Of a DNA stretch of 64,000 nucleotides, positions 156 through 57,172 are shown one piece after another. A program made the translations under genes and the position numbers. How positions within the stretch are numbered: position 1 is the first letter of the stretch; the number at the start of each line of letters is the position of its first letter. Source of the stretch: Taeniopygia guttata (lineage: Eukaryota > Chordata > Aves > Passeriformes > Estrildidae); assembly GCF_048771995.1 (NCBI RefSeq), contig NC_133030.1, positions 10,804,001 to 10,868,000 on the forward strand, written 5' to 3'. The notes below the pieces were generated by a model, which saw only the letters and a program-made list of their open reading frames with translations, did no database searches and was not told where the DNA came from.

Positions 156-3100
156 CTGTTACCCCTCTCCTCAGAGAGTCCAAGAGCCTCTTCTGCAGCT
201 TCTCTCCTCCTCCTCTCCTCTGCCAGTGTTTCTGTGAGCTGGGAGAGACTCTGCTGCATTGACTCATACTGCTGTTCAGTCTCTGCAAGCCTGGAACAAA
301 ATGAAATCTGAAATCAATATTTTATGGACTCAAATAATTACTTATTTGTTCTTTTTGAAATCTTCCTTTTTGGGACAGACTTAATTATAATTAAGATGTT
401 TCAGCTTAAACACTGAGATAAAGCCACCAATAATCAGTATATTTACATACAGATACAAACCACAAGTATTACCAGATGATAACAATTCAAGAATATGGCT
501 TATGATTCATGTAATCCACTGTAAATCCACTCCTTCCCCCTCTTCACACAAATGCCTCAGAGGGATAGAAAAGCATTACTTTCACACTCAGAACACAGCT
601 GTCAGGAAAATAATATTGCTAATACATGCTCTGAGTCCTGACCTTTTCCTGAGCTGATTTAGCTCCATATTGTCTATCTCCACAATAATCCCAGATCTCT
701 CCTGTGGCGCTCCAGGGGGAACTTCTGCTCTGGTTTCATCCTAAAAAATATTAAGGGAAAAAAAAAAAAAAAACCAAAGAAACAAACAAACAAAAAAACC
801 AACAAGTGACCATTTTTCTACTTGCCAAAAGTCTTTACTTCAATTACAGAAGCCATAAGCACCACAAAACAGTGGAACAGGTGATTCTTTGTGCCACTTA
901 ATGTTTTCATTTCCATCTCTCAGCAATGTCTGAGGGGAAAGAAAAGCATCTACACATCCACAATTCCAGAAGCAAGGCAGTTATTAATTTATTCTTAATT
1001 TACAGTTCTTGTTTGTATTCATTTCCATCTATGGAAGAGCAAGGGTTGTTTTCTATATGTATCCATATGCTATTTCAGGATGTTCTGTTAATGATTGCTA
1101 ACGAATAACCAAGGCAGTACAGGAAAGCTTTTTAAGAATAAAGGAATAATGATGAATCATAAGGGACTAGTATGGAAGGGACCTTAAAAATCAAGAAGTT
1201 CCCACCCTGTTCCACATCTGTAGTAATCATATAGCTGTGTATGAGGGGTTGGCAAAGGGTACTGAAATGATGAACTGGTGATGTAGATCTCACTTCTGAA
1301 TATATTACTCAAGCATTGTAAAATGATCTACAACTGATGTGAAATTATCACTAAATTTCTTGATTCACTGAGCAGTGATCATCCAGTTATCTCTACCAGC
1401 TGCAGACCAACTCAAAAAAGATGCTTCAAAACAAAAATATATGTAAAACAACTTCCTTAAATGAAAAGTTAAATTAGACCACCTTAACAAAAAGAAGGAC
1501 AGTTATCTTCAGTCACAGGCCAGCAAAAGTACTGGGTCACTACAACAAAAAGTACATTATTTCATTTTTAGCACGAAAACCAGAAACCTAAAAACCTTTC
1601 CATGTATCTGGTTACCTGGACAGAGCCTTGGAAAGATGTCACTTGCATTGCCTGATATGCCCTCTCCAGCCTTATGTAACGATTTTGCAGATCAGTGTAA
1701 TGAAGCTGGTTGTCCCTCAGAGTCTGGGAAAGTGTCCTCAGCTGGGCAGACAGGACAGCATTCTCTTCTGCTGACTGCATAACCTGAGAGCAATTCACAT
1801 TGAAGTCATTAAAATTAGCTCTCCCAGGAAATCCCTCCAGATTTGAGACCTGCTGTTTCAAAATTGTATTCACTTTTTGGCGAGGTCATAGTGGGATTTA
1901 AGATGTTTTATGAGCAGAGGAAATAATGAAAGATGAGCAGTGATTTCCCCTGCCACCAGAACACCCAAACCAGAAGCTGAAATCTTGTTCCAGCTAGACA
2001 AGACACCTGTTTATGTCTGTAATGAAAAATATTTGACTGTGAGTAGAAGTTCAGAGGTTCATCAACGTCTTCAGAATGTAGTCAAATAAACCTCTCAGAC
2101 AAACTGCAAGTCAGGAAAGCCTGGCAGAAAGAAAACTGACATTTAATTTCAATGTCCAGGCTGAGTTCTTCCAAAATATCTACATTTCAGTCATGCAAGA
2201 CACCACCACTTCAGCAATATTCAAACATGAGGCCAGCCCAGATTTACATGAGACTTCCAGGATCAGAGCTGCTGTTCCAAGCTACCTTGGAATTAATCTG
2301 CTGGAAGTGCAGGTCCTTCTGCTGCATCTCCTGGAGGCAGCGCTGCAGCTCAGTCTGCAGCTGGTTCTTCTCAGCCAGGACACGTTTGATTTCCTCTGCT
2401 CCATCTGCACTTCCAGCAAGGGATGCAGTTTCCAAAGCCTTAAAAATATCAGGATATTCAGGGTAAATAGTACAGGAGTTCTCTAAATAATACACAACCC
2501 CAACACTAAATATACCCTGCAGAATTCCCTTTTCACAAGATTATTTTCTTCTCACAACTTAATACTGCATTTGAAAGACACTTTAAATACAAGATTTTTT
2601 ATACATATATATAGTGCTAATACTTGCATTAAAAAAATAACAAAAGAATTACCACAAAAAGGCAACCCAACCTAATTTTTAATTTGCAAATAATGCAAAG
2701 CACAAAAATAAAGGGGGGGAAACAGCAAAGGATTAATATAAAGTACCTTCCAAAAATTATTTTCATGCTAATAAAGTCTTGTATTCATAACTTGTAGAAC
2801 AGCTGTTTTGTAAATATGAATTTAAAGCTGAAAGAATCCATTTTGAAAAGAAAAAATGTATTACCAATTTACAGTTTTGGCCTTCTTTATCTCTGGCAGC
2901 TCAGCATTTTTATATTAATCTCTAATAAGGGAGGATATGTGCCATCTCTAATGCTTTATGGAATCTATTCACCCATACAATCATGAAATAAAAGGTTTTA
3001 CCACATAAAATCCTCCATTACCCATAGACATTACTGGTCAATAGCTCTTACTCATGATTGCAATCACAGAAAATGAACAGCATACAAACTTCAGCAACTA

Positions 3101-56700: not shown

Positions 56701-57172
56701 GATTGGAAAGGACCTTACAGATCAATGAGTTCTCCTACCATAGGCAGCGACACCTTCCACTATCCCGGGCTGCTCCAAACCCCATCCAACCTGGCCTTGG
56801 ACACTTGCAGGCATGGGGCAGCCACAGCTTCTCTGGGAAACCCGTGCCAGGGCCTCACCACTTTCTCAGTAAAAGGGAACATTTCATTTTGTGAGAAAGA
56901 TGACGGTAAAAGAGGGGAAAGCCCGGTGCTGCTAGAAGGGAAGGGTGCTCGCACCGTGTCCTCCCCTCAGCGCCTCCTCCGGAGACAGGCGAGCCCTTTC
57001 CCGCACAGCCCGGGGAGCGCTCCGCCCGCCGCGCCCCTGCCATCCCCCCGGGCCGCCCGTACCTCACCAGATCCCGGTAGTCGAGGAAGCTGAGGATGAG
57101 CAGCAGCGGGTCGGTGGGGAGCAGCTCCAGGCTGAGGGTCTGCGAAAGCTCCACGTCCGAGGGCGCCGCCAT
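47704..57172 (-). CDS. FBXO3: F-box only protein 3 (SCF ubiquitin-ligase substrate receptor)
   Basis: FBXO3 joins the SKP1-CUL1 ligase through its F-box and selects substrates for ubiquitination. Exons in transcript order: 57063-57172, 55080-55169, 54471-54634, 52783-52897, 50988-51192, 50671-50716, 49527-49611, 48743-48865, 48234-48349, 47704-47891. Phases agree throughout and give 413 residues. The F-box is near residues 16-60 (LLPTDPLLLILSFLDYRDL, NQLSSHDPLWKRHCKKYW). A SUKH-type region follows (GSMALSNHYRSEDLL, DTAAGGFQQR, FCIHTGLSQY). The C-terminal third is the ApaG domain (TSFLPELSSVHPPHYFFTYR, YWRITNAKGDVEEVQGPGVV, YTSCTTFTTTSGYMEGYYTF). The start ATG has A at -3 and G at +4. The first donor is GTGAG followed by gtacgg, which alone keeps the DYRDLVSCCY frame. 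The frame closes at TGA 47704-47706, where I recall human FBXO3 having Arg (VSIARLEMG). Human FBXO3 also has a tail-less isoform of about 415 residues. Divergence from the human protein is visible; CD59 next door supports orthology. Confidence 0.93.
56683..56880 (+). mobile_element. CR1 LINE 3' fragment in FBXO3 intron 1
   Basis: A good match to the avian CR1 3' region: gaatggtttggattggaaag, gacaccttccactatccc, ccccatccaacctggccttg and tggggcagccacagcttctc. It ends about 180 bases from the first exon. Confidence 0.9.

Follow-up and report, generated by a model that had tools for sequence, protein, structure and literature searches.

Giantin, the product of GOLGB1, is described in passages of PMC6611411, PMC5769581 and PMC5840792 as a tail-anchored golgin of the Golgi rim, proposed to link cisternae or to recycle vesicles and to support glycosylation. 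CASP (CUX1) and golgin-84 (GOLGA5) are rim golgins as well, likewise tail-anchored by a related membrane segment, and a tyrosine of this segment is required in CASP for export from the endoplasmic reticulum (passages of PMC5840792). The present analysis concerns a 64,000-nucleotide stretch of the zebra finch (Taeniopygia guttata) genome, C7:10804001-10868000, hereafter referred to as the window, in which a gene of the giantin family, labeled W, lies on the minus strand in the same orientation as FBXO3 and CD59. Mammals are not known to have a giantin other than GOLGB1; the N-terminal region of giantin binds p115, and CASP and golgin-84 are far shorter than W. With a probability of roughly 0.84, we consider W to be an intact second giantin, a paralog of GOLGB1 and most likely an ohnolog, which originated from the doubling of a chromosomal block in early vertebrates and was probably lost in the lineage leading to mammals.

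W displays the features of a giantin: a C-terminal transmembrane tail with a short lumenal end, a coiled coil of several thousand residues homologous to GOLGB1, and intron positions in common with it. Its final exon encodes ...LTYLVTLHILVVLCLTGVL followed by a stop codon, and both the tyrosine and the histidine of the anchor are shared with GOLGB1, as is a PGAPQE motif. The C-terminal 379 residues of W aligned to the C-terminus of GOLGB1 with a score of 442, to be compared with a mean of 63 and a maximum of 95 in 300 shuffles. As a control, 11 overlapping coiled-coil pieces from the first large exon of GOLGB1 were aligned to the same residues and scored 92 on average and 103 at most; the likeness therefore goes beyond mere coiled-coil resemblance.

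The entire genome (1.14 Gb in 41 contigs, designated C1, C2, C7 and so forth) was searched for further giantins. The 434 residues at the C-terminal end of the W giant exon gave three matches with E <= 0.001, namely W itself and two in a gene on C2 (170.9-172.2 kb), while 224 residues of the tail gave six matches with E up to 1, corresponding to five W exons and the equivalent exon of the C2 gene (E 0.058). No third giantin copy was retrieved with the giant exon and the tail, which is no proof of absence as only the best candidates were scored, and CASP and golgin-84, unlike GOLGB1, were left unmatched by these queries. The gene on C2 extends from C2:150.6 to 180.4 kb, starts with MLSRLSGLAS at C2:150645, includes a large exon of 1,649 codons and another of 650, and terminates in ...TYLLALHVLLFLCFTGHL. 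The human giantin sequence employed here (3,259 residues) is unverified, not having been taken from a database; it resembles the C2 gene in its start (MLSRLSGLA) and in its end (TYLLALHVLLFLCFTGHL), and the two large exons are 46% and 60% identical to it. HCLS1, named in the initial annotation as a neighbor of human GOLGB1 (3q13.33), is located on the same strand 6 kb downstream (C2:186.1-198.9 kb). The C2 gene, which has both the HCLS1 neighbor and the closest sequence to human GOLGB1, is the ordinary GOLGB1; W has neither. Since a separate GOLGB1 sits beside HCLS1, W is a paralog and not a relocated GOLGB1. The initial annotation had proposed an old paralog and suggested that a second giantin be sought in the same genome, and both suggestions are borne out: two giantins were found, the other one beside HCLS1, and the site patterns described below place the duplication before the bird-mammal split.

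The neighbors of the two giantin genes form pairs as well. The HS1-repeat family is represented by two loci, HCLS1 beside GOLGB1 and CTTN, which is 325 kb away from W at C7:10.469-10.478 Mb. A SHANK PDZ probe yielded 11 matches, three each at C2:0.58-0.59 Mb (SHANK3), at C7:10.53-10.60 Mb (SHANK2) and on C39 (SHANK1), the names being assigned by identity and position; the single weak matches on C1 and C20 are probably other PDZ genes, and SHANK3 was not present within C2:60-300 kb. Both SHANK2 and CTTN are no more than 335 kb from W, and both SHANK3 and HCLS1 no more than 450 kb from GOLGB1; the CTTN/HCLS1 and SHANK2/SHANK3 pairs are divided as W/GOLGB1 is, with one member in each of the two chromosome regions. 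Human keeps both members of these two pairs and apparently does not keep W. Two additional pairs, KIAA1549 (C2:54.8 Mb) with KIAA1549L (C7:4.0 Mb) and CAPRIN2 (C2:55.2 Mb) with CAPRIN1 (C7:10.93 Mb), are far from GOLGB1. A C2/C7 pair was thus observed in four of the five families probed (KIAA1549, HS1, Caprin and SHANK, not EAF), which were picked as known neighbors and are not an unbiased sample. Because three paralog pairs are linked, duplication of a block in early vertebrates is indicated, and a whole-genome duplication is the simplest account of W: its split from GOLGB1 is older than the bird-mammal divergence, and other duplicated genes accompany it in a paralogous block. An ancestral block in which a giantin was linked to a SHANK gene and to a gene of the cortactin/HS1 type would have doubled, one copy giving rise to GOLGB1-HCLS1-SHANK3 on C2 and the other to W-SHANK2-CTTN beside CD59-FBXO3 on C7.

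An old small-scale duplication, in which a giantin segment was copied before the amniote ancestor and no whole-genome duplication took place, is an unlikely alternative. The age of the split alone cannot separate it from a whole-genome event. Moreover, the EAF family falls outside the block, its members being located on C3 and C9 and forming no C2/C7 pair; in human, EAF2 is a neighbor of GOLGB1 at 3q13.33, on the side where IQCB1 lies. The three tightly linked C2/C7 pairs, along with the KIAA1549 and CAPRIN pairs on the same contigs, nevertheless fit a chromosome-scale doubling better. It is very unlikely that an assembly misjoin near 33-36 kb, a concern raised in the initial annotation, has brought an unrelated locus beside CD59. 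A poly-A-rich simple repeat does occur at 33.08-33.14 kb, but no unsequenced base (N) is present in the window or in the 20 kb to its left, CTTN and SHANK2 on the left and CAPRIN1 on the right are found within 0.5 Mb on one contig, and a second giantin would remain even so.

The age of the duplication was estimated by aligning three sequences, W, bird GOLGB1 and the unverified human GOLGB1, over human residues 1474-3010, with 1,420 columns in which all of them are present. Human and bird agree at 830 of these columns, W and bird at 429, and W and human at 453. At the sites where human and bird differ, W sides with bird 88 times and with human 112 times (binomial p 0.10), and only 3.6% of 2,000 block bootstraps favor bird. 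Corresponding counts were 64 and 80 over residues 541-1473 (827 columns, aligned less reliably), and 175 and 211 over residues 541-3259 without overlap (2,492 columns). The branch lengths are 0.31 for human, 0.36 for bird and 1.64 for W, which joins about midway between the human and bird GOLGB1. Since W displays no excess of bird-only residues, the duplication is, as judged from these alignments with the unverified human sequence, older than the common ancestor of birds and mammals. A bias in that sequence could affect the site-pattern test; the evidence from neighboring genes is independent of it. A GOLGB1 duplicate that arose recently in birds or reptiles and evolved at a fast rate would be in keeping with the W branch, about five times longer than the others, and with the last eight exons, which by themselves tend slightly toward bird (36 against 26 in 353 columns, partly overlapping the main stretch); the genome searches, too, cover this one genome only. 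Such a duplicate is hardly credible, as the excess of bird-only residues expected of it is missing from all the larger comparisons and the linkage of W to CTTN and SHANK2 speaks for age.

The exon structure indicates how the copy was made. W contains a single giant coiled-coil exon (4409-15238, 3,610 codons, phase 0 on both sides), included in a minus-strand open reading frame (ORF) of 3,614 amino acids (4394-15238) and ending at donor 4409; it exceeds the two large exons of GOLGB1 combined by about 1,300 codons (3,610 versus 2,299). The eight exons on its 3' side all correspond one-to-one to GOLGB1 exons in the same order and phase, two of the eight being equal in length (98 and 135 nt), with some boundaries in this comparison placed by hand (e.g. 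W 740). Listed from the giant exon onward, all on the minus strand, they are 3974-4125 (counterpart C2:173325-173503, with AG/GT sites and phase in common), 3736-3895 (C2:174719-174884), 2286-2438 (C2:176002-176133), 1616-1783 (C2:177253-177411), 643-740 (98 nt, as C2:177523-177620), which encodes the PGAPQE motif and whose 5' end was set manually, the gene finder having given 701, and 156-290 (135 nt, as C2:178276-178410), the last within the window. Beyond the left edge follow the penultimate exon (C7:10803426-10803540) and the final, transmembrane exon (C7:10802799-10802957), homologous to the bird tail and to the human one. Two N-terminal exons of W and GOLGB1 are also equal in length (123 and 114 nt) and phase. 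As exon order and phases match those of GOLGB1, W was copied at the DNA level. The long branch of W and its one giant exon in place of the two of GOLGB1 might evoke a processed retrocopy or a decaying pseudogene, but conserved intron positions and phases refute the former, and with 3,610 codons still open the latter is extremely improbable. Relocation of the original GOLGB1 to a site beside CD59, offered initially as the alternative, found no supporting point and is refuted by the presence of GOLGB1 beside HCLS1 on C2, chicken GOLGB1 being similarly located at the start of chromosome 1 (323-358 kb; passages of PMC7142648).

Several observations weigh against an old, intact second giantin. In addition to the unpaired EAF family, the long W branch and the lean of the last eight exons, probes for IQCB1 and EAF2 were negative at C2:60-300 kb. 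W is also divergent, with an identity of 30% to bird GOLGB1 and of 32% to the human sequence over the 1,420 columns. No first coding exon of the MLSRLSG type, as present in GOLGB1, was found for W, the best score being 18 versus 15 in a control stretch, and of 17 candidate exons on the 5' side of the giant exon, 13 lack a clear GOLGB1 match. The remaining four (at 29.3, 28.4, 25.6 and 25.4 kb) outscore 100 shuffles each in alignments to bird GOLGB1 as well as to human GOLGB1, while those at 27.2 and 25.1 kb just exceed the shuffles with human giantin only. Because most upstream exons do not match GOLGB1 above shuffles, the N-terminal part of W appears, on sequence comparison, to be mostly its own.

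W most likely encodes a second tail-anchored golgin of the Golgi rim, which would have been lost on the mammal line. The protein, provisionally about 4,700 residues long as compared with 3,259 for human giantin, would be held at the rims of the cisternae by its C-terminal membrane segment and would project a very long coiled coil, capturing or linking vesicles and cisternae as proposed for giantin. With a middle that is enlarged and an N-terminal part that is largely different, it would be expected to have a longer reach and partly different partners. The tail LTYLVTLHILVVLCLTGVL retains a tyrosine common to bird and human GOLGB1, which is taken to be the counterpart of the tyrosine required by CASP to leave the endoplasmic reticulum. 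Birds and mammals separated more than 300 million years ago, and because the 10.8-kb exon is still open after such a time, W appears to have been under long purifying selection. We find it slightly easier to accept than to doubt the wider proposal that vertebrates began with two giantins, that the second survives in this bird as a fourth tail-anchored golgin, longer and evolving independently, with a cargo or tissue role of its own, and that its loss from the mammal lineage made GOLGB1 the sole giantin there.

Within the open-licence PMC text, no paper was found that describes W or a GOLGB1-like, GOLGB2 or giantin-like gene, nor one linking HCLS1 and CTTN as ohnologs. The passages of PMC6346536 and PMC10416458 contain nothing on a second giantin, and the presumed loss of W in mammals fits the literature passages. 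A Golgi protein supposed to be single-copy may thus have an overlooked sister gene. W may well be annotated in databases as a GOLGB1-like locus. Should W be a retained ancient sister gene, GOLGB1 knockouts in species keeping it would not be full giantin nulls, and its loss on the mammal line would bear on the differing effects of giantin loss in rodents, fish and possibly birds. The two copies also offer a natural comparison between the parts kept by both (the tail, the PGAPQE segment and the end of the coil) and the parts that have drifted.

The W gene extends from about 29.3 kb to beyond the left edge of the window, its transmembrane exon lying 1.0-1.2 kb outside. Except for the giant exon and the eight exons that close the gene, the gene model is provisional, as the N-terminal exons and their boundaries were predicted by a home-made gene finder. 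The giant exon gave only matches below the family cut-offs when compared to Pfam, and none when compared to the Protein Data Bank (PDB). The most 5' coding exon recognized (29145-29306, minus strand as all that follow, 5' end unfixed) matches human giantin residues 28-79 (E 0.001) and C2:151388-151501. It is followed by exon 28286-28432, with a counterpart near C2:152234-152383, and by three provisional coiled-coil exons with no clear GOLGB1 counterpart (27201-27079, 26497-26330 and 26095-25910). The exons 25513-25635 (123 nt) and 25258-25371 (114 nt) agree in length and phase with C2:156999-157121 and C2:157530-157643, respectively, and 24824-25145 is a coiled-coil exon with a borderline match to human giantin. 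Two provisional groups of coiled-coil exons have no GOLGB1 counterpart above shuffles and were either gained by W or else lost from GOLGB1: 24485-24376, 24010-23905, 23803-23712 and 23243-23093 on one hand, 17786-17656, 16507-16398, 16131-15963 and approximately 15609-15505 on the other. Exon 23803-23712 nevertheless equals the predicted GOLGB1 exon C2:160428-160519 in length (92 nt) and phase. Small exons reported by the gene finder at 20671, 19817, 18648 and 16805 are doubtful. A GC-rich stretch at 32200-32900 is plausibly the W promoter, as suggested by base composition and GC-rich ORFs.

The adjacent CD59 and FBXO3 genes were first recognized with human sequences and are co-oriented, as initially annotated, on the minus strand. 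CD59 is represented by two coding exons (39679-39521 and 38067-37972) whose product matches the Pfam CD59 family (E 5e-14) and 10 CD59 sequences of the PDB (best E 2e-9). The coding exons of FBXO3 (47707-57172) were matched from 57136 to 47707, the last being 47892-47707, and the ATG was placed at 57172 from a count along the ORF; in Pfam, F-box, SUKH-1 and ApaG domains all score above the cut-offs. With the giant exon, the C-terminal exons and these domains all identified, the presence of a giantin-family gene beside CD59-FBXO3 is upheld, and the 156-57172 span drawn by the initial annotation coincides with an exact W exon end and with the FBXO3 start codon. Upstream of this codon, at 57255-57698, tandem repeats of 7, 21, 35 and 63 bp occur within a repetitive plus-strand ORF of 293 amino acids and are probably a GC-rich minisatellite. 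To the left of W, no neighbor gene was recognized by eye among the ORFs of at least 75 amino acids in C7:10784001-10803000.

Of the genes suggested for a comparison of gene order, KIAA1549L, CD59 and FBXO3, the latter two are next to W, but KIAA1549L (C7:4013882-4056424) is 6.7 Mb away from CD59-FBXO3, of which it is a near neighbor in human. This distance marks a rearrangement beside the position of W. On C2, GC-rich segments with closely alike ORFs on both strands are found at 100.5, 107.7 and 126.4 kb (region C2:100-131 kb), which suggests that a repeat has been duplicated upstream of GOLGB1, close to the end of the contig, and a serine-protease-like stretch about 10 kb upstream of GOLGB1 (C2:140.7-141.3 kb) is possibly an acrosin gene. 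SHANK2, W, CD59 and FBXO3 are all contained within about 0.33 Mb (C7:10.53-10.87 Mb); in human, SHANK2 (11q13) and CD59 (11p13) are on separate chromosome arms, and a chromosome break may have occurred on the mammal line at or near the site of W.

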